Origin: Oscillospiraceae bacterium
GTDB lineage: Bacteria > Bacillota > Clostridia > Oscillospirales > Oscillospiraceae
Direction: 5' to 3'
Assembly: GCA_022800525.1 (NCBI GenBank)
Contig: JAAWQM010000003.1
Location: 16,072-80,071 of the forward strand
DNA: 64,000 nt
Of this stretch, positions 34,924-48,194 are shown piece by piece (position 1 is the stretch's first letter; the number at the start of each line of letters is the position of its first letter). Below the pieces are notes generated by a model that was not told the origin of the DNA, made no database searches, and saw only the letters and a program-made list of their open reading frames with translations. Made by a program: the position numbers and the translations under genes.

Positions 34924-35613
34924 GTGGAGAAAAAAACCATCGGGATTGTCGGCGGCATGGGACCCCTTGCCACCGTTGACCTGTTCCGGAAAATCGTGGT
35001 ACACACCAAGGCGGCCTGCGACCAGGACCACCTGCGCATCCTGATTGAGAACGACCCCGGCATTGAGGACCGGACGGCGGCGCTGCTCTGGGGCGGCGCG
35101 GACCCTACGCCGAAGCTGGCCGCCGCGGCGCGGAACCTGCAGCGCGGCGGCGCGGAGCTTCTGGTCATTCCCTGCAACACGGCCCACTGCTTCTTTGACG
35201 CGGTTCAGGCGGCGGTGGACATCCCTGTGCTCCATATGATACGCGTGACGGCCCGGGCGCTGGAGGCCAGGGGCGTCAGAAAGGCGGGGCTCCTGTCCAC
35301 CAGCGGTACCGTGCAGACGGGCATCTATCAGGATGTTTTTTCCGGCCCGGGGATCGGGCTGCTGACTCCCGGCGAGGAGGGGCAGAAGGACCTTATGGAC
35401 GCCATTTACTGGATCAAGGCCGGAAAGATGGATTTTGACGATACCGGCGTCCGCCGGGCTGCGGACGAGCTGATGCGCCAGGGAGCGGAGACCCTGATTT
35501 TGGGCTGTACGGAGCTGCCCCTGATGGAGCGGATCTATGACTACCCCGTGACAGACCCAACCCTGGAGCTTGCCTTGGAGGCGGTCCGTCAGGCGGGCGG
35601 AGAGGTCATCTGA
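34924..35613 (+). CDS. Aspartate/glutamate racemase family protein (GTG start)
   Basis: KTIGIVGGMGPLATVDLF; both catalytic Cys contexts PCNTAH and GCTELPL. Confidence 0.9.
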   Translation: MEKKTIGIVGGMGPLATVDLFRKIVVHTKAACDQDHLRILIENDPGIEDRTAALLWGGADPTPKLAAAARNLQRGGAELLVIPCNTAHCFFDAVQAAVDIPVLHMIRVTARALEARGVRKAGLLSTSGTVQTGIYQDVFSGPGIGLLTPGEEGQKDLMDAIYWIKAGKMDFDDTGVRRAADELMRQGAETLILGCTELPLMERIYDYPVTDPTLELALEAVRQAGGEVI

Positions 35614-35654
35614 GGCCCCGGCGCATAGAGAAACAGACGAAGGAGGAATCCCTT

Positions 35655-36647
35655 ATGTATAAGATCAGGCGGGCTTCGGTCTGCTTGCTGTTGCTGCTCA
35701 TGCTGCTGTCGCTGGCCGCCTGCGGAGGTCCCGGCGGTCAGAAGGCCGGGCAGCCGGATACCGCGCCGGAGAATCCGGCGGATGTGGAGCCGGTAGAGCC
35801 GGCGATCCCGGCGGACCCCGTGGAGCCAGTGAAGCCAGTGGACCCCGTGAAGCCAGTGGAGCCGGAGCCTGACGTCACGGCCCCGGAGGCAGACCCGGAG
35901 CCGGAGGAGCCTCCGGCGGAGGCTGAGGAACCGGAGCCCGTCGCAGCTGCGAAACCCACCGGCAGCGGCTACACCGAGGAGGCATATGACCAGGTGGTGG
36001 CGGAGGTGCTGGACAGCATCACCACCAGCGATATGACCAAGCTGGAGAAGGCCAAGGCGATCTGGGACTACGCCAAGGGCAAGATCCGCTATACGGGCAC
36101 GTCGAATAAAACCGACTGGAAAGAGGGCGCTTATATTGGCATGACCGACAAGGCGGGGGACTGCTTCACCTACTACGCCGTCTCCCGCGCCCTGCTGACT
36201 GCGGCGGACATTGACAATCTGGAGGTCACCCGGGTGGGCGGTTCTACCAGCCACTACTGGAATCTGGTCAACTGCGGCGACGGCTGGTATCACTTTGACG
36301 CCACGCCCCGCAGCAGCAAGATGCCCGCCTTCACCAGCTTTATGTTCACCGATGAGGAGGCCGCCGACTACACGGCCCGGGCGGGCCGCAGCTATTACAG
36401 CTTTGACGGCTCTCTCCTGCCGCCCCGGGCAGGCAGCGAGGAGGCGTCCGCCCCCGCGCCGGTGGAGACGCCTGCGGCGCAGCCCGAGGATACCGCACCC
36501 GCTGTGGATACGGTAGATACGGCGGAGCCGGAGCCGGTCCTGCCGGAGAACGAGATCCCCCTGGAGGCAGGCGCGTTCAATAATGAGGCGGACGTCCCGG
36601 AGGAAATGGAAATGCCCGACTGGCTGAAGCCCGCCGGCGCTGCCTGA
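35655..36647 (+). CDS. Lipoprotein with Pro/Val/Glu-rich stalk and transglutaminase-like domain
   Basis: LSLAACGG lipobox; PVKPVDPVKPVEPEP repeats; AGDCFTYYAVSRALL, SHYWNLV, WYHFDATP. Confidence 0.85.
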   Translation: MYKIRRASVCLLLLLMLLSLAACGGPGGQKAGQPDTAPENPADVEPVEPAIPADPVEPVKPVDPVKPVEPEPDVTAPEADPEPEEPPAEAEEPEPVAAAKPTGSGYTEEAYDQVVAEVLDSITTSDMTKLEKAKAIWDYAKGKIRYTGTSNKTDWKEGAYIGMTDKAGDCFTYYAVSRALLTAADIDNLEVTRVGGSTSHYWNLVNCGDGWYHFDATPRSSKMPAFTSFMFTDEEAADYTARAGRSYYSFDGSLLPPRAGSEEASAPAPVETPAAQPEDTAPAVDTVDTAEPEPVLPENEIPLEAGAFNNEADVPEEMEMPDWLKPAGAA

Positions 36648-36690
36648 ACAATCTGTGAACAATCTGGAACCAATAAGGAGAAAACAAGTT

Positions 36691-37290
36691 ATGAGACGGT
36701 TTATGAGTCTGACGCTCGCGCTTTTGCTTGCGCTTGCGCTGACAGCCTGCGGCGGCAAGGAGCCGCCGGATTCCCAGCAGGACAACCCCGGAGACACCAG
36801 CGTCACGACTCCGGCGGACCCCGGACAGAACGAGCCCGCAAAGGAGCCCGCGCCGGTGGAGATTCCCATGCCGAAGGCGGGCAGCAAGCTGGTCTTTATT
36901 TATAAGGACTGCCCACTGCCTATGAATGCGGAGTTCGCGCCCCTGCTGGACTTCATCGGAGAGGCCGGCAGCTATTTCGAGGCGGCGAGCTGCGCCTTTG
37001 AGGGGCTGGACAAGACCTATACCTACAGCGACGTGGAGATTATCACCTACCCCAATGAGGATGTGGACTACATCTCCAGCATCCGGCTGCTGAGCAGCGC
37101 CGCAGCTACCCCTGAGGGCATTACCATCGGCTCCTCCAGGGCCGACGTGATAGCCGCCTACGGGGAGGACTTCGAGGAGTCCGGAGAGCAGTATACCTAC
37201 GAGGACGGCGACGCCCAGCTTTTCATCCTGTTCGAGAACGACGCGGTGATCTCTGTGGAGTATGCCGCAATCAATCCTCTCCTGGCGTAA
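36691..37290 (+). CDS. Putative lipoprotein of unknown function
   Basis: ALALTACGGKEPPDSQQ lipobox; SD AAGGAG. Confidence 0.75.
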   Translation: MRRFMSLTLALLLALALTACGGKEPPDSQQDNPGDTSVTTPADPGQNEPAKEPAPVEIPMPKAGSKLVFIYKDCPLPMNAEFAPLLDFIGEAGSYFEAASCAFEGLDKTYTYSDVEIITYPNEDVDYISSIRLLSSAAATPEGITIGSSRADVIAAYGEDFEESGEQYTYEDGDAQLFILFENDAVISVEYAAINPLLA

Positions 37291-37317
37291 GACGCCGGGG
37301 CGAAGGGAGGATGGTCC

Positions 37318-38832
37318 ATGCAGAATAATATCTTGAATTATTTGTACCAGACGGTACAACGGGTACCGGAGAAGACCGCGTTTTCCGACGGAACCAACGC
37401 CTTGACCTTCCGGCAGGTGTACGAGGCCAGCCGCAGCGTGGGGAGCTTCCTGTGCGGAAAGGGGTTCTGCAAACGGCCGGTGGTGGTCTTCATGCGCAGG
37501 TCGCCGGACGAGGTGGCCGCGTTCCTGGGGGCCATCGCGGGCGGCTGCTTCTATGTGCCTGTGGACGAGGAAATGCCCTCCGGCAGAATCCAACTGATTC
37601 TGGACAACGTGAAGCCGCCACTTGTCATCTGTGACGAGAGCACGGAGGACGCGGCCAGGACGTTCCGCCTGGAGGGGGGCGAGGTGGTCCGCTACAGCGA
37701 AATCCTCCGGACCCCGGCGGATGAGGCCGCGCTGGAGCGGGTTCGCCGCAGCACCATCGACACGGACCCGATCTATATCGTCTTCACCTCCGGCTCCACC
37801 GGCGTACCCAAGGGGGTGGCTGCCTGCCACCGGTCGGTAATCGACTATATCGAGCAGCTCTCCGAGATCATGGGATTCCATGAAAACACGGTTTTCGGCA
37901 ACCAGACGCCCCTCTATTTTGATGCGTGCTTGAAGGAGATCGGCGGGACCCTCAAGTTCGGCGCCACGACCTATCTGATCCCCAAGAACCTCTTTTCGAT
38001 TCCCGTAGCCCTGGTGAATTACCTGAACGAGCACCGGGTCAACACCATCTGCTGGGTTGTCTCCGCGCTTACGATGGTCAGCATATTCGGCACATTTGAT
38101 GTCGTAAAACCGGAATATCTGCACACCATAGCCTTTGGAAGCGAGGTTTTCCCCATCAAGCAGTTCAATATCTGGCGGAAAGCCCTGCCGGACGCCGTTT
38201 TTACCAATCTTTACGGCCCGACGGAGGGTACCGGGATGTGCTGCTATTACCGGGTGGACCGGGAATTCGCCTCCGGGGAGGCGATCCCGATTGGGAAGCC
38301 TTTCCCCAATCGGGAAATCCTGCTGCTGACCGGGGACGGAAAGCTGGCGGAGGCCGGGCAGGAGGGCGAGATCTGCATCCGGGGCACCTCCGTGACTCTG
38401 GGTTACTACAACGATCCTGACCGTACCAGCGCGGCCTTTGTCCAGAACCCGCTGAACACGGCGTATCCGGAGATTATCTATAAAACCGGGGACATCGGCC
38501 GGTACAACGAGGCGGGGGAGCTGATGTTCGTATCCCGCAAGGACTATCAGATCAAGCACATGGGCCACCGTATCGAGCTGGGAGAGATCGAGACAGACGT
38601 GGGGCTCCTTCCCGAGGTACAGCTGGCGGCCTGCATTTACGACGCGAAGCGGAAGAAGATCGTGCTGTACTATGTGGGCGATGTGGGGGAGAAGGAGCTG
38701 GCGGCGTCCCTGACGGCGAAGCTGCCGCGCTATATGCTGCCCAACAAGGTGATAAAGCTGGAAGAGATGCCGCTGACGGCAAACAAAAAAACAGACCGCG
38801 CCGCCTTGAAGAAAGCCTATGAGGGCGGCTGA
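37318..38832 (+). CDS. Amino-acid adenylating enzyme, DltA-like AMP-dependent ligase
   Basis: IVFTSGSTGVPKGV (A3), YFDACLKEIGG (A4-like), NLYGPTEGT (A5), YKTGDIGRYN (A7), ANKKTDRAAL (A10). Confidence 0.9.
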   Translation: MQNNILNYLYQTVQRVPEKTAFSDGTNALTFRQVYEASRSVGSFLCGKGFCKRPVVVFMRRSPDEVAAFLGAIAGGCFYVPVDEEMPSGRIQLILDNVKPPLVICDESTEDAARTFRLEGGEVVRYSEILRTPADEAALERVRRSTIDTDPIYIVFTSGSTGVPKGVAACHRSVIDYIEQLSEIMGFHENTVFGNQTPLYFDACLKEIGGTLKFGATTYLIPKNLFSIPVALVNYLNEHRVNTICWVVSALTMVSIFGTFDVVKPEYLHTIAFGSEVFPIKQFNIWRKALPDAVFTNLYGPTEGTGMCCYYRVDREFASGEAIPIGKPFPNREILLLTGDGKLAEAGQEGEICIRGTSVTLGYYNDPDRTSAAFVQNPLNTAYPEIIYKTGDIGRYNEAGELMFVSRKDYQIKHMGHRIELGEIETDVGLLPEVQLAACIYDAKRKKIVLYYVGDVGEKELAASLTAKLPRYMLPNKVIKLEEMPLTANKKTDRAALKKAYEGG

Positions 38833-38851
38833 CAGAGAAAGGAAAACGACA

Positions 38852-39082
38852 ATGGAAGAACTGCTGAGAATTTTGAAGGACCTGCGCCCCAACATTGACT
38901 TTGAGACCCAGGAGCGTCTGATTGACGATATGATCCTGGACTCCCTGGCCCTTGTCAGCCTGATCTCCGAGATCAGCGAGGAGTTTGACGTGACCATCAC
39001 GGCGAAGGACATCATTCCGGAGAACTTCAACTCCGCGAAGGCCCTGTACGCATTGATCCAGAGGCTGGAGGACGAGGATTAA
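38852..39082 (+). CDS. Acyl/peptidyl carrier protein, DltC-like
   Basis: 76 aa; DDMILDSLALVSLISEISEEF with phosphopantetheine Ser. Confidence 0.88.
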   Translation: MEELLRILKDLRPNIDFETQERLIDDMILDSLALVSLISEISEEFDVTITAKDIIPENFNSAKALYALIQRLEDED

Positions 39083-39103
39083 ACCGACGCGGGGAGTGGG
39101 CTT

Positions 39104-40693
39104 ATGCTCTTTACATCATATGGGTTTATAGGATTCGCCGCAGTCCTGGTTTCTGCCTATTACCTTGTGCCCAAGCGCTGCCAGTGGGGGCTCCTGCTGG
39201 CGGCGAGCTATCTCTTCTATTTCATCGCGGGGCCGTCTGCCCTGCTCTACCTGCTGGCGACGACGGCGGCGGTATGGTTCGCCGCGCTCCAGATTGAGAA
39301 GAACGTCCGGCGGCAGAGCGCCTATCTGAAGGCCCGCAAGGATATTCTGTCGAAGGATGAGAAAAAGGAATACAAGGCGGAGCAGAAGCGCGTTCGCGCC
39401 CGGTGGGTGGCGGCGTGCCTTCTGCTGAGTATAGGCATCCTGGCGGTGGTGAAGTATACCAATTTCTTCATCTCAAACGTCAACGGCGTCCTGGACGCCC
39501 TGGACCGGCCCCAGCTGTCCTTTGTCACACTGGCGCTGCCCATGGGCATCTCTTTTTATACGTTCCAGGCCGTTGGATATCTGATTGACGTGTATCGGGG
39601 AAAATATCCCGCCGAAAAAAATCCCTTCCGGTTCGCGCTGTTCGTCTCCTTCTTCCCCCTGCTGGTCCAGGGGCCGATCAGCCGCTTTGACGAATTGGGC
39701 GGCACATTATACCAGGAGCATACTTTCGACAAAGTGACAGTATGTTCCGGTTTGCAGCGCGTTCTCTGGGGATACTTTAAGAAGATGGTGATTGCGGACA
39801 GGATGCTGGCCGCCGTCTCCACCATCATCGGCCACACGGATACCTATACGGGGGCGTATGTGTTCGTGGGGATGATTTTCTATACCCTGGAGCTGTACGC
39901 GGATTTCACCGGCGGCATCGACATCACCATCGGCCTTGCGGAGGCCATGGGCATCACTGTGCAGGAGAACTTCCGCCGCCCATATTTCTCCAAATCCTTG
40001 AAGGAGTACTGGCGCAGGTGGCACATTTCCATGTGCTCCTGGTTCCGGGAGTACCTGTTCTATCCCGTGTCCACCTCCAGGGCGATGCAGAGGTTCTCCA
40101 AATTTGCCCGGGGACGCTTGGGCGAGGCGGTGGGACGGCGGCTGCCGGTGTATATCTCCTCGTTCATCGTCTGGTTCGCGACGGGAATCTGGCACGGGGC
40201 GAGCTGGAATTTTATCGTCTGGGGACTTCTGAACTGGGCGGTCCTGATGCTCTCCGAGGAGCTGGAGCCGCTGTACCAGCGGTTCCATGACCGGTTCCCC
40301 GTGAACGGGAGGGGAGCATATAAGCTGTTCCAGACAGGGCGCACGTTCCTGCTGGTCTGCGTGCTGAACATCTTCGACTGCTACCCCTCCCTGTCCGTCA
40401 CGGCGGGGGCGCTGGGGTCCATGTTCACGGTCCGAAATTGGAGCGTCCTGTGGGACGGTTCGCTGATGGCCCTGGGCCTGTCCGGGCTTGACTATGGCAT
40501 CCTGGCCGCGGGACTCCTCCTGATGCTGGGGGTGAGCCTTGCCCAGCGAAGCGGCAGCGTCAGGGAAAAAATCCGGACGCTGCGGTATCCGGCGCGCTTT
40601 GCCATCTGGTACGGTCTGTTTCTGGCGGTGCTGCTGATGGGAGCCTACGGAATCGGGTACGATGCCAGCCAGTTCATTTATAACCAGTTTTAA
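39104..40693 (+). CDS. MBOAT family O-acyltransferase (DltB/AlgI-like)
   Basis: multi-TM; WRRWHISMCSWFREYLFYP, ATGIWHGASWNFIVWG catalytic His. Confidence 0.93.
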   Translation: MLFTSYGFIGFAAVLVSAYYLVPKRCQWGLLLAASYLFYFIAGPSALLYLLATTAAVWFAALQIEKNVRRQSAYLKARKDILSKDEKKEYKAEQKRVRARWVAACLLLSIGILAVVKYTNFFISNVNGVLDALDRPQLSFVTLALPMGISFYTFQAVGYLIDVYRGKYPAEKNPFRFALFVSFFPLLVQGPISRFDELGGTLYQEHTFDKVTVCSGLQRVLWGYFKKMVIADRMLAAVSTIIGHTDTYTGAYVFVGMIFYTLELYADFTGGIDITIGLAEAMGITVQENFRRPYFSKSLKEYWRRWHISMCSWFREYLFYPVSTSRAMQRFSKFARGRLGEAVGRRLPVYISSFIVWFATGIWHGASWNFIVWGLLNWAVLMLSEELEPLYQRFHDRFPVNGRGAYKLFQTGRTFLLVCVLNIFDCYPSLSVTAGALGSMFTVRNWSVLWDGSLMALGLSGLDYGILAAGLLLMLGVSLAQRSGSVREKIRTLRYPARFAIWYGLFLAVLLMGAYGIGYDASQFIYNQF

Positions 40694-40738
40694 GCGCGGT
40701 GCAGAACATCAATATCCAACCGCCGGGAGGGCAGGGGT

Positions 40739-41800
40739 ATGACGGAAACCAAAACCCGAAAGGGACAGATCATAAAAATAGCCGTGACAGCGCTGATTGT
40801 GCTGTCGGGCTTGTTCCTGCTGCAAAGGCTGCTGATGCCGAAGTACGTGGACGGCGTGGTCGAGGGCGCGTTTGTTGCGGAATACTATCGGGAGAATAAG
40901 GACCACGACGTGATTTTTGTGGGAGACTGCGAGGTATACGAGAATTTCTCCCCGGTGGTGCTCTGGCAGGAGTACGGCGTCAACAGCTATATCCGGGGCA
41001 GCGCCGAGCAGTATATCTGGCAGTCCTACTACCTGCTGGAGGACACCCTCCGCTATGAGACGCCGGACGTGGTGGTCTTCAACATTCAGTCGCTGCAATT
41101 CAGCGAGTCCCAGCGGGAGGCTTATAACCGGATGTCGCTGGAGGGGATGAGGTGGTCGGCCTCCAAGGTGAAGGCAATCTTCGCCTCCATGAAGGACAAC
41201 GAGCATTTCCTGGACTACGTGTTTCCCATCCTGCGCTACCATAGCCGGTGGAGCGAGCTGACGGCGGCGGACGTGGAGTATATGTTCACAACCAAGCGCG
41301 TGTCCCACAACGGCTACTATATGCGCGTGGACGTAAAGGCCGCCGAGAACGTCCCCCAGGGCAAGCCGCTGGCGGACTACAATTTCGGGGAAAATGCCTG
41401 GAAGTACCTGGAGAAGATGACCGCCCTCTGCGCTGAAAAGGGTATTCAATTGATCCTGATTAAGGCACCCAGTCTTTATCCCTACTGGTACCCTGAGTGG
41501 GAGGCGCAGGTGGAGGAATACGCCGAAAAAAATAATCTGCCGTATATCAATTTCCTGGAGCTTGTGGACGAGATCGGAATTGACTATACGACGGACACCT
41601 ACGACGGCGGCCTGCATATGAACCTGTCCGGCGCGGAAAAGCTCTCCCGCTATATCGGCAGGGTGTTCCGTGAGGAGGCGGGGCTTCCCGACCGCCGGGG
41701 CGAGGAGAAGCTGAGCGCCGTCTGGGCGGAGAAGGCCGCCGCCTACGAGGAGGAGAAGCGGGCGCAGTATCAATATTACGGCATGGAGGAGCAAAACTGA
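40739..41800 (+). CDS. Membrane-anchored SGNH/DltD-like protein
   Basis: N-terminal TM; VIFVGDCEVYENF block I-like with Cys; DGGLHMNLSGAEKLS block V-like. Confidence 0.7.
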   Translation: MTETKTRKGQIIKIAVTALIVLSGLFLLQRLLMPKYVDGVVEGAFVAEYYRENKDHDVIFVGDCEVYENFSPVVLWQEYGVNSYIRGSAEQYIWQSYYLLEDTLRYETPDVVVFNIQSLQFSESQREAYNRMSLEGMRWSASKVKAIFASMKDNEHFLDYVFPILRYHSRWSELTAADVEYMFTTKRVSHNGYYMRVDVKAAENVPQGKPLADYNFGENAWKYLEKMTALCAEKGIQLILIKAPSLYPYWYPEWEAQVEEYAEKNNLPYINFLELVDEIGIDYTTDTYDGGLHMNLSGAEKLSRYIGRVFREEAGLPDRRGEEKLSAVWAEKAAAYEEEKRAQYQYYGMEEQN

Positions 41801-41801
41801 G

Positions 41802-43649
41802 ATGTGCGGAATCTGTGGATTTATGAATTGGAAGAGCGGGGATCGTCCCCAGGCGGAAATCGTGGAGAACATGCTCCGCGCCATCCGGCACCGGGGGCCG
41901 GACGGGAGCCGGTCCCTGATACTGGATGAGATTGTCCTGGGCTTCGACCGTCTCAGTTTTATCGATCTGGATGGCGGGATGCAGCCCATCCAGAATGAGG
42001 ACAGGACCATCTCCATGATCTGCAACGGAGAGATCTTCAACTTCCGGGAGCTCCGGGACGAGCTGGCCGCAAAGGGGCATGTCTTCGCCACCGGGACGGA
42101 CGTCGAGGTCATCATCCACCTCTATGAGGAGCAGGGCCTGGACTTTGTGAACCGTCTGAACGGCCAGTTCGCCATCGCCCTCTATGACGGGAAGCGCCGC
42201 CGGCTGCTGCTGGTCAGGGACCACATCGGGATATGCCCCTTGTTCTATACCGTCGTGGGAGGCAGGGTCGTCTTCGCCTCCGAGATCAAAGCCATCCTGG
42301 AGTACCCGGGCGTGAAGCGGCGGCTGAACCTGAAGGCGGTGGACCAGTTGATGAACTACCCTGGCGTGGTTTCACCAAACACGTTTTTTGACGGCATCTA
42401 TTCCCTGCAGGCCGGACATATGCTGCAAATCGAGCCGGAGGAGGAGATCCGCGACCGGGAGTACTGGGACCTGATCTACTCCGCGGAGGAGGAAGAGGAT
42501 AAGGGGGAGGCGTACTATACCGAAAGACTGCGTGAGCTGCTGCGGGACGCCATCTCGAAGCGTTTGGTGGCAGATGTGCCCATCGGGTTCTACATCTCCG
42601 GCGGGCTGGACAGCTCGGTGGTGGCCTGCTTTATCAGCAAGTACCTGCTCAACGGCTGCTACTCCTTCTCCGCCGAAATCGGCTCCGGCGATTTGGATGA
42701 GAGCCGTTTCCAGAAGATCATCCGGGACTCCGTGGGCTCCGCCCACTACAGCGTCAAGGTGTCGGAGGAGGAAATCTGGGCCAGCCTGAAATCCGTGATT
42801 TACCATGCGGAGTCGGCGGTGAAGGAGAGCTACGACGCGGCCGCTTATATGCTCTCCGGACTGGTGAGCCAGTCCCCCGCGAAGGCGGTTCTGACGGGTC
42901 AGGGCTCGGACGAATTCTTCTGCGGCTATGTGGGCTACGCGCTGGACCTGTTCCGGAACATGCAGAAGGGGCGGATGTCCGTTGAAGAGTGCGAGGTCAA
43001 CGAGCGGCTGTGGGGCGACCCTTACTTCCGGTACGAGCGGATTCATCCGGAAATCAGGAAGATTCATACGAAGCTCTACAGCGGGGACGTCCGGGGAGAG
43101 ATCGACAAATTCTCCGCCTTTGCGTCCAGTCCGATCAATGTGGAACGGGTCAGGGGGCTGAGCTCCCAGCGGCGGCGGTCCTATATCGACTGGAAGCTCC
43201 GCCTCTCCGATCACCTGCTGGGGGAGCACGGGGACCGCATGTTCTTCTCCCACTCCGTGGAGGGGCGGCATCCCTTCCTGGACCGGGACGTGCTGGACTT
43301 TGTGACCCGTATGCCGGACAAGTACAAGCTCAACGGCACCAATGAGAAATATATCCTGAAAAAGGCGGCGGAGGGGATCGTGCCCGGCGAGGTCCTCAAG
43401 CGGAAGAAGTTCCCCTTTCAGGCGCCGGGCATGTCAGCGCTGGTGAAGCGGGCGGGGGGAAGCGACCTGGAGTTTCTCAGCGGCGAGCTGCTGAAAAAGT
43501 ACGGAATTTTTGATGTAGACTATGTGAATGAGCTGAAAAAGGTCTACTGCCAGGAGGATTTCAAGCTGATGGGCGCGTATGAGATCGACTATCTCCTGAT
43601 TGTCATGACGGTCACGATGCTGTGCGAGCAGTTTTCGCTGACGCTGTGA
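41802..43649 (+). CDS. asnB: Asparagine synthase (glutamine-hydrolysing)
   Basis: MCGICGF catalytic Cys; RHRGPDG; YISGGLDSSVVACF PPi loop. Confidence 0.95.
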   Translation: MCGICGFMNWKSGDRPQAEIVENMLRAIRHRGPDGSRSLILDEIVLGFDRLSFIDLDGGMQPIQNEDRTISMICNGEIFNFRELRDELAAKGHVFATGTDVEVIIHLYEEQGLDFVNRLNGQFAIALYDGKRRRLLLVRDHIGICPLFYTVVGGRVVFASEIKAILEYPGVKRRLNLKAVDQLMNYPGVVSPNTFFDGIYSLQAGHMLQIEPEEEIRDREYWDLIYSAEEEEDKGEAYYTERLRELLRDAISKRLVADVPIGFYISGGLDSSVVACFISKYLLNGCYSFSAEIGSGDLDESRFQKIIRDSVGSAHYSVKVSEEEIWASLKSVIYHAESAVKESYDAAAYMLSGLVSQSPAKAVLTGQGSDEFFCGYVGYALDLFRNMQKGRMSVEECEVNERLWGDPYFRYERIHPEIRKIHTKLYSGDVRGEIDKFSAFASSPINVERVRGLSSQRRRSYIDWKLRLSDHLLGEHGDRMFFSHSVEGRHPFLDRDVLDFVTRMPDKYKLNGTNEKYILKKAAEGIVPGEVLKRKKFPFQAPGMSALVKRAGGSDLEFLSGELLKKYGIFDVDYVNELKKVYCQEDFKLMGAYEIDYLLIVMTVTMLCEQFSLTL

Positions 43650-43695: not shown

Positions 43696-43735
43696 AAACT
43701 CCGGTGAGACGGCGCGGCTTGTCTCACCGGAGTTT
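43696..43735. terminator. Bidirectional intrinsic terminator
   Basis: AAACTCCGGTGAGAC-ggcgcggctt-GTCTCACCGGAGTTT, A/T tracts on both sides. Confidence 0.85.
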
Positions 43736-43766: not shown

Positions 43767-45215
<1,449 letters not shown>

Positions 45216-45287
45216 TTACCTCCTGTTATTTTGAATGGTCCGGACTGCCCGCAGGCAGTCCGGGCTCTGGTTGAATGGTTCAGAATG

Positions 45288-47204
<1,917 letters not shown>

Positions 47205-47256
47205 CTATGAAAAGGGCCGGCCATACGCGTCTGGCGCAGCGCCTGTTTCAATACAG

Positions 47257-48087
47257 TTATGTTCGGGTCAGCTTCTCAATATGGATGATCAGATACCCCT
47301 GCTCCTCCAGGTCCAGGGAATAGCCCAGCTTCTGGTGGATGTAGGCGGCGATCTTCTGCGTGCAGGCTTCCGCCTTGGGGTACATGGCGGATACGATATT
47401 ATAAAGCTCCTCACTGCCGGAGTAGGTCTCGCGGGTGAAGATGCGGGAGAGAAAGAATTTCAGGTGGGTGACAAAGCGGATGTAGTCCAGGGAGTCCTCG
47501 TTCAGATCGAGGTTGTAGGTATAGCGCACCAGATTGACCACATCCCGGATGAGTTGGACCAGGTCGTTGGCCAGACGCTCGCCGCTGCCGTACTGGGCGT
47601 TGACGATGTGCATGGCGAGAAACCCCGCCTCATCGTCGCGAAGCCGGATTCCGGCTTCGCGCTGGACGATGTCCAGCGCATCCAAACCGAGCTGGAACTC
47701 ATCGGGATAGAATTTCCTGATCTCCCAGAGCAGGGCGTTGGTCAGGTCCAGGCCCTTCCGCTGCCGCTCAATGGCAAAGCTGATGTGGTCGGAGACCATC
47801 AGGACCAGGGTTTCATTCAGCGGCTTGTTGATTTTCGTCTGCACATGCTCCACAATCTGCATCCCCAGGGAGAAGTGCTCCAGCGGGATGCGCTCCAGCA
47901 GCTCCACCAGCTGCGGGATGTGCGCGCCGCTGCTGAGACCGAAAAACTGCTTTTCCACCAGCTGCATATCCGGCTCCATCCCGGGCTTGGCGCCGAAGCC
48001 GATGCCCCAGCCCATCAGGACGATTTCCCGTCCCTGGCTGTCGGAGGCGATCACAATATTGTTGTTCAGCTGCTTGGAGATTTTCAT
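47257..48087 (-). CDS. BglG/LicT family transcription antiterminator
   Basis: MKISKQLNNNIVIASDSQGREIVLMGWGIGF RNA-binding CAT domain; two PRDs. Confidence 0.94.
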   Translation of the reverse strand: MKISKQLNNNIVIASDSQGREIVLMGWGIGFGAKPGMEPDMQLVEKQFFGLSSGAHIPQLVELLERIPLEHFSLGMQIVEHVQTKINKPLNETLVLMVSDHISFAIERQRKGLDLTNALLWEIRKFYPDEFQLGLDALDIVQREAGIRLRDDEAGFLAMHIVNAQYGSGERLANDLVQLIRDVVNLVRYTYNLDLNEDSLDYIRFVTHLKFFLSRIFTRETYSGSEELYNIVSAMYPKAEACTQKIAAYIHQKLGYSLDLEEQGYLIIHIEKLTRT

Positions 48088-48123
48088 AGTCCAGCACCTC
48101 CGGTCCAGGAACGGCAGGGCAAC

Positions 48124-48194
48124 AAAAAAACCATGCCCGTAAAACGCCAGCAAACCAACGGGTTTCTCCCTGGCTGGGTTTTACAAAACATGGT
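48124..48194 (-). terminator. Leader terminator upstream of bglG-type gene, overlaps RAT
   Basis: minus strand CCATGttttGTAAAACcCAGC...GCTGgcGTTTTACgggCATGGTTTTTTT. Confidence 0.8.

Follow-up and report, generated by a model that had tools for sequence, protein, structure and literature searches.

The window analyzed here, a stretch of 64,000 nucleotides from contig JAAWQM010000003.1 of an Oscillospiraceae bacterium, contains a cassette of eight genes that encode, in this order, a racemase of the Asp/Glu family, a transglutaminase-like lipoprotein (hereafter tgl), a second lipoprotein (lip2), an adenylating ligase, a carrier protein, an MBOAT membrane acyltransferase, an SGNH/DltD-like protein and an AsnB-type amidotransferase. 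The cassette is a real, conserved and apparently undescribed variant of the Dlt/MBOAT-SGNH kind; no description of the gene set was found in the literature searched, the subscription literature being outside reach. The best explanation, held with moderate confidence, is that it encodes a transmembrane aminoacyl-transfer system, Dlt-like yet separate, in which an acidic aminoacyl group, probably D-Asp and in some cases amidated, would pass from the carrier to a tyrosine of the MBOAT protein, then to a cysteine of the SGNH protein and finally to an acceptor at the cell surface. An earlier interpretation made from the DNA letters (hereafter, the sequence-only reading) had recognized the Dlt-like logic of the ligase, carrier, MBOAT and SGNH proteins, which the present analysis supports.

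Conservation of the cassette

A search of the GTDB species genomes with the MBOAT protein as the query yielded 80 loci, which come almost exclusively from Lachnospiraceae, Oscillospiraceae and other Clostridia, with many of the hosts labelled as gut or rumen organisms; the cassette itself is found in dozens of gut Clostridia. Forty of these loci are not cut by contig ends (hereafter, untruncated loci), and the profile-based counts of gene presence rest on these. Tgl, lip2, the carrier, the MBOAT protein and the SGNH protein are each present in all 40 untruncated loci and the ligase in 39, compared with 27 loci for the racemase and 13 for AsnB. When the open reading frames (ORFs) of at least 55 amino acids around the 80 MBOAT genes were clustered into families, the eight families of the window came out as the widely recurrent neighbors, the next real families being found in 10 loci at most; the clustering revealed no further widely conserved neighbor and no conserved tailoring, regulator or transporter genes. 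The borders that the sequence-only reading had drawn around the module are borne out by this recurrence and by one locus (L006) that carries exactly the same eight genes in the identical order. Bacterium D16-50 (L004) likewise has the full cassette.

The content of the cassette is constant while the gene order is shuffled, with 14 arrangements among the 40 untruncated loci, which is a strong indication of joint function. The racemase and AsnB are accessory, mostly alternative members: 24 loci contain the racemase only, 10 contain AsnB only, 3 contain both and 3 neither, and on a tree built from the ligase, MBOAT and SGNH sequences, the presence of AsnB changes 3 times and that of the racemase 4 times. 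The proposed link of the racemase, the lipoproteins and AsnB to the core is thus upheld by the gene neighborhoods, where both lipoproteins invariably adjoin the core, with the qualification that the racemase (encoded outside the locus in other cassette genomes) and AsnB are not general components.

The transfer step

The MBOAT protein ends in FIYNQF, an instance of the FxYxxF acyl-shuttle motif, and this tail is conserved as FIYN[QR]F in 72 of the 72 sequences; His364, Trp303 and His307 are invariant as well. The nearest solved structures are those of DltB (E=1e-21), and the score against the DltB model is far below its cut-off (Table 1). In PatA and its kin, FxYxxF is located at the C-terminus of the MBOAT protein itself and the donor is acyl-CoA, whereas the carrier-fed DltB needs a small protein, DltX, to supply the FxYxxF tyrosine; the shuttle role of the motif has been shown for PatA and for DltX (PMC12148441). 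By analogy, the carrier-fed MBOAT protein of the cassette would use its own FxYxxF tail in place of DltX, combining one feature of each type.

The SGNH protein lacks the Ser-His-Asp triad and has instead Cys64-His293-Asp289: block I reads GDCE, with Cys64 at the nucleophile position, and Asp289 and His293 of block V are retained, each in 65 of the 65 sequences. The domain search gave no DltD Pfam match for this protein, and its assignment comes from the predicted fold: in the AlphaFold2 model (pLDDT 81), the best Foldseek matches include DltD (6pfx), GDSL lipases and PatB, the match to 6pfx having a probability of 1.0 with modest TM-scores. No SGNH acyltransferase with a Cys nucleophile was found described in the literature searched. 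The GSCFA family of Pfam is a possible precedent for Cys at this position. The family is listed without a known activity (PMC9487903).

Two further invariant extracytoplasmic cysteines are found in the lipoproteins. In tgl, the triad Cys170-His200-Asp215 is conserved in 63-64 of the 64 sequences. Lip2 has a two-repeat beta/alpha fold resembling BLIP, YfeY and YjgB, with weak matches in the structure search, and is variable except for the motif YFEAASCAFEG (residues 107-117), in which E109 and Cys113 are present in 58 of the 58 sequences and S112 in 57. Comparison with the sister four-gene systems of the same bacterial family, considered below, included five SGNH sequences, all with Ser in place of Cys64; the compared sister loci lack both lipoprotein genes.

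The sequence-only reading had the amino acid esterified to a surface polymer. The ester bond is not supported in that form, because the Cys at the nucleophile position also makes amide or thioester transfer possible; a reasonable hypothesis is a relay of thioesters that may end on an amine acceptor. In a special case of the favored explanation, an amine carried by a protein, peptide or amino sugar of the surface would receive the aminoacyl group from the Cys64 thioester, with tgl acting on the same acceptor, and the product would be an amide rather than an ester. The invariance of Cys64, tgl Cys170 and lip2 Cys113 in the Cys-type cassette, set against the Ser-type sister loci, favors this version, but thioester enzymes can acylate hydroxyls too and the comparison extends to only five sister sequences, so we regard it as tentative and, on balance, doubtful.

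The racemase and AsnB

The racemase of the window retains the catalytic Cys84 and Cys195 along with Arg50 and Lys165. The two cysteines are present in all 45 aligned racemases, and together with a score above the TIGR00035 cut-off, this places the protein in the aspartate racemase family; the nearest solved structure is the 1jfl aspartate racemase (E=1e-56), and the cysteate racemase model NF052483 is exceeded as well (236 vs 190 bits). In a quick tree with weakly supported deep forks, 47 cassette racemases form a main clade, and the racemases of the window and of L091, the latter located 24 bp after lip2, fall within a lineage whose genes usually stand alone in the family of the window. According to this tree, three racemase lineages (the main clade, that of the window and that of L091) joined the cassette, and the window racemase is an independent addition within its lineage. 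Such repeated joining is hard to explain other than by a functional link. Furthermore, among 151 genomes of the family, a racemase relative is present in 10 of the 10 genomes with a true cassette vs 47 of the 141 others (Fisher p=3.4e-5, for related genomes). Taken together, the sequence comparisons support the linkage of the racemase to the cassette.

Identity to the AsnB of the window is 64-79% for the other cassette AsnB proteins, compared with 35% at most for the next-ranking AsnB across 150 further genomes of the family; within this sample, the AsnB clade is confined to cassettes. The glutaminase Cys (C2) is conserved in 30 of the 30 proteins and the TIGR01536 cut-off is passed. The position of Glu348 of the Escherichia coli enzyme is, however, occupied by Gln367 in 30 of the 30, giving the motif GQGSDE instead of GEGSDE; other AsnB-type proteins of the family have VLSGEGADE (5 of 6) or VLSGDAGDE (1 of 6). 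The genome of the window encodes another AsnB-type protein, which makes it unlikely that the cassette enzyme simply supplies asparagine. The ligase pocket does not differ between loci that have AsnB and those that lack it; AsnB therefore probably acts after loading, with the loaded amino acid or a later product a more likely target than the free one. Because the racemase and AsnB are mostly alternative, an amidated D-amino acid made by the two enzymes cannot be the general product, contrary to what the sequence-only reading had entertained.

Two other schemes can be discarded: the alternative presence of the racemase and AsnB rules out that they always act together, and the presence of tgl in all untruncated loci vs AsnB in only 13 rules out that Gln or Asn made by AsnB is then cross-linked by the transglutaminase. 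Stand-alone racemase-AsnB pairs occur outside any ligase cassette in two loci, L154 (8036 onwards) and L155 (8575 onwards), a hint that both enzymes act on one substrate.

The frequent absence of either gene (the racemase from 13 and AsnB from 27 of the 40 untruncated loci), as well as the derivation of the window racemase from a usually solitary lineage, would fit a system of six core genes with an L-amino acid such as L-Glu as the substrate, the racemase and AsnB being unrelated neighbors. This possibility appears improbable considering the three independent joinings, the co-directional and tightly spaced arrangement, the retention of the racemase in every cassette genome of the family sample and the cassette-only AsnB clade.

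The ligase pocket and the predicted substrate

The substrate pocket of the ligase, read by alignment to the solved Bacillus cereus DltA, is DAKCAGLGMK vs DLMTLCTVAK in B. cereus DltA, and it is near-invariant in 63 cassette ligases, with position 239 occupied by K in 61 and by R in 2. Asp235 contacts the alpha-amino group of amino acids, and Lys at 239 is typical of glutamate-type pockets in the nonribosomal peptide synthetase (NRPS) code. A basic residue at 239 or 278, the mark of acidic-type adenylation domains, is present here as K/R239. Pockets of sister ligases include DAKPSGLVDK and DLKIIGLVDK, which are closer to the Glu code than the cassette pocket. Given Lys239 in a near-invariant pocket and these sister codes, an acidic amino acid is the best prediction, and the substrate is probably such an acid, most likely D-Asp.

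The scores of the ligase are far below the cut-offs of both DltA models (Table 1), and the carrier scores 29.6 bits against a DltC cut-off of 68; its best curated model, also below cut-off, is AmcB, a cispentacin carrier. The phosphopantetheine attachment site is Ser42 (numbered from the 38819 start), the D41-S42 pair being kept in 58 of the 58 carriers. In the genome of the window, no ligase above the DltA cut-off and no canonical DltA was found. With no protein at a Dlt cut-off, no canonical DltA and a pocket unlike that of DltA, the cassette is, judging by these comparisons, not a D-alanylation operon, in agreement with the earlier proposal that the substrate is other than D-Ala.

Divergent D-alanylation of teichoic acid, or transfer of another small neutral D-amino acid, with the pocket differing only through the remoteness of the ligase, is accordingly considered quite improbable. 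Among curated models, those of DltA, DltB and DltC rank first or close to first for the ligase, the MBOAT protein and the carrier, respectively, and some of the four sulfatase-fold matches in the genome could be lipoteichoic acid synthases, but all three proteins miss the equivalog cut-offs by a wide margin, the pocket differs as described, the linked racemase is of the Asp type, not the Ala type, and no TagB/TagF-type glycerophosphotransferase (PF04464) was found in the genome. Still less probable is the synthesis of a small natural product, either secreted or linked to a lipid, in which a free adenylation domain, the carrier and an AsnB-type enzyme would build an aminoacylated molecule for export by the MBOAT protein: the AmcB match and the occurrence of AsnB-type enzymes in such pathways are outweighed by the lack of conserved tailoring, regulator or transporter genes around the loci, the constant presence of two lipoproteins and the combination of an FxYxxF tail with an SGNH partner, a hallmark of envelope acylation (PMC12148441).

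Proposed mechanism

Under the favored explanation, a racemase, whether encoded within the cassette or at another genomic site, would provide an acidic amino acid in the D-form, D-Asp being the most likely. The ligase would adenylate this acid, with Lys239 holding the side-chain carboxylate, as the pocket and the family suggest, and load it onto the carrier; AsnB, where present, may amidate the loaded acid or the product and so alter the added charge, which is the weakest step of the scheme. By analogy with DltX, the MBOAT protein would accept the aminoacyl group of the carrier on Tyr526 in its C-terminal FIYNQF tail, and Cys64 of the SGNH protein would take it as a thioester and hand it to the acceptor outside the cell. 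Tgl and the Cys113 lipoprotein, which recur as regularly as the core enzymes, may process, bind or accept the product.

Several points weigh against this scheme. The acid-binding role of Lys239 is taken from the NRPS code, which is not known to be calibrated for stand-alone DltA-like ligases, and compared with the Glu code DAKDLGVVDK, only D235, A236, K239, G301 and K517 match, positions 278 and 331 among others being different. The relatedness of the genomes makes the Fisher test of racemase co-occurrence phylogenetically non-independent, and the racemase could produce D-Asp, D-Glu or D-cysteate or serve another purpose. The acylation of Cys64 is predicted from the residue itself, and no polymer-making gene is found in the cassette.

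A bolder version, speculative and unlikely, envisages an acidic or amidated D-amino acid placed on the surface of gut Clostridia through an extracytoplasmic thioester relay that involves the MBOAT Tyr, SGNH Cys64 and perhaps lip2 Cys113 and tgl Cys170 and probably ends in an amide, forming a second, charge-opposite counterpart of D-alanylation. D-alanylation lessens the negative charge of Gram-positive surfaces and protects against host peptides; a machine for acidic amino acids would reverse this charge effect or be tuned by amidation. The hosts of the cassette dominate the mammalian gut, and their envelope chemistry is little known. The acyl-shuttle mechanism would also widen to include a carrier-fed MBOAT protein with its own shuttle tail and a Cys-using SGNH transferase. 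The idea is directly testable through residues named as invariant, namely ligase Lys206, MBOAT Tyr526, SGNH Cys64 and lip2 Cys113.

Layout of the locus

The eight ORFs of the window are located on the plus strand where the sequence-only reading had placed them (Table 1), and the close co-directional spacing it described is confirmed, with gaps of 41, 7, 27, 19, 21, 45 and 1 bp when the carrier is taken to start at 38852. This start is preferred because an AAGGA ribosome site is present and the homologues begin at the same point; the listed ATG at 38819 would overlap the ligase by 14 bp. The gene names given previously agree with Pfam and NCBIfam, with two exceptions: lip2 belongs to none of the families, and the sequence of the SGNH protein yields nothing beyond a GDSL match below threshold. 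The promoter suggested at 34866-34894 matches the consensus at 9 of 12 positions, which is the chance level for the region (6 such matches found vs 3.7 +/- 2.0 expected). The terminator is a strong hairpin, albeit with a weak tail (CTTTCCTT). The locus is considered one unit because all 40 untruncated loci contain these families, in varying order, and not because of the promoter.

Table 1. Genes and other features of the cassette in the window.
Feature	Position	Strand	Evidence
Asp/Glu racemase family protein, AspR type	34924..35613	+	PF01177 148 bits; TIGR00035 219 bits (cut-off 93); NF052483 236 bits (cut-off 190)
Transglutaminase-like lipoprotein (tgl), core member	35655..36647	+	PF01841; in 40/40 loci
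Second lipoprotein (lip2), core member	36655..37290	+	no Pfam family; in 40/40 loci
Stand-alone adenylating ligase, DltA-like	37318..38832	+	NF003417 275 bits (cut-off 476); TIGR01734 267 bits (cut-off 560)
Carrier protein	38852..39082 (listed ORF start 38819)	+	PF00550
MBOAT membrane acyltransferase, 529 aa	39104..40693	+	PF03062; TIGR04091 147 bits (cut-off 375)
SGNH/DltD-like extracytoplasmic transferase (putative)	40739..41800	+	fold model; sub-threshold GDSL match by sequence
AsnB-type glutamine amidotransferase, accessory	41802..43649	+	TIGR01536 438 bits (cut-off 267)
Terminator-like hairpin 3' of AsnB, 17-pair stem	43696..43735	+	folded stretch -29 kcal/mol

Just upstream, the segment 32399-34084 (plus strand) encodes a further transglutaminase lipoprotein, one that has a DUF4358 domain; a phosphoribosyltransferase gene on the opposite strand lies between it and the cassette. 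Downstream, an ordinary beta-glucoside phosphotransferase system (PTS) locus at 43767-48153 (minus strand), with genes named from the ORF translations as 6-phospho-beta-glucosidase, PTS permease and BglG-type antiterminator, converges on the cassette terminator.

Comparison with known systems

The cassette shares with Dlt (DltA-DltC-DltB-DltX-DltD) the adenylating ligase, the carrier, the carrier-fed MBOAT protein and the SGNH transferase outside the cell; DltB is the nearest solved structure for the cassette MBOAT protein, and DltD is one of the closest folds for the SGNH protein. The cassette differs in the ligase pocket, in the Cys that replaces the SGNH nucleophile Ser, in the two constant lipoproteins and the racemase and AsnB accessories; no DltX was found among the ORFs of at least 55 amino acids, and no member passes a Dlt cut-off. 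With the PatA/PatB and AlgI/AlgJ/AlgX O-acetyltransferases, the cassette has in common the built-in C-terminal FxYxxF of the MBOAT protein and the SGNH partner (PMC12148441), but the donor in those systems is acyl-CoA, whereas in the cassette, the ligase and carrier would supply an aminoacyl group and Cys occupies the nucleophile position. The only other MBOAT gene in the genome of the window adjoins one for an AlgX/DHHW-like protein and is not part of a dlt operon: in locus L001 (contig C24), an AlgI-like MBOAT protein ending in FLYFRF, the AlgX/DHHW-like protein and a small lipoprotein are encoded on one strand, and by sequence, this AlgI-like locus is a second surface acylation system.

The sister four-gene systems in the family of the window (L098, L101-L103 and L105) also consist of a ligase, carrier, MBOAT and SGNH protein, with ligase identity of roughly 40-47% and K239 in several of the ligases (DVK..., DAK..., DLK...). 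They differ in having a Ser nucleophile (GDSE/GSSE/GSSQ) and other pocket codes and in lacking tgl, lip2, the racemase and AsnB. Judging from the pockets, surface aminoacylation seems to have branched out within the family into systems for different substrates. Separately, three loci (L106, L107 and L108) contain tandem pairs of DltA-like ligases, with pockets DNFFACLDVK and DNFF[AV]ALVDK; the neighbors of these pairs are a short DltB-like MBOAT protein without the FxYxxF tail and an ORF of ~1000 aa.

In lactic acid bacteria, D-Asp is joined to peptidoglycan precursors by an ATP-grasp ligase. The RacD-AslA-AsnH route to D-Asp/D-Asn cross-bridges in these bacteria resembles the cassette in combining a racemase for D-Asp with AsnB-type amidation of an envelope carboxylate (PMC4155827), and in Listeria, AsnB likewise amidates such a carboxylate, that of meso-diaminopimelic acid (PMC8554201). 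Unlike both, the cassette employs an adenylating ligase with a carrier, and its AsnB has Gln at the Glu348 position.

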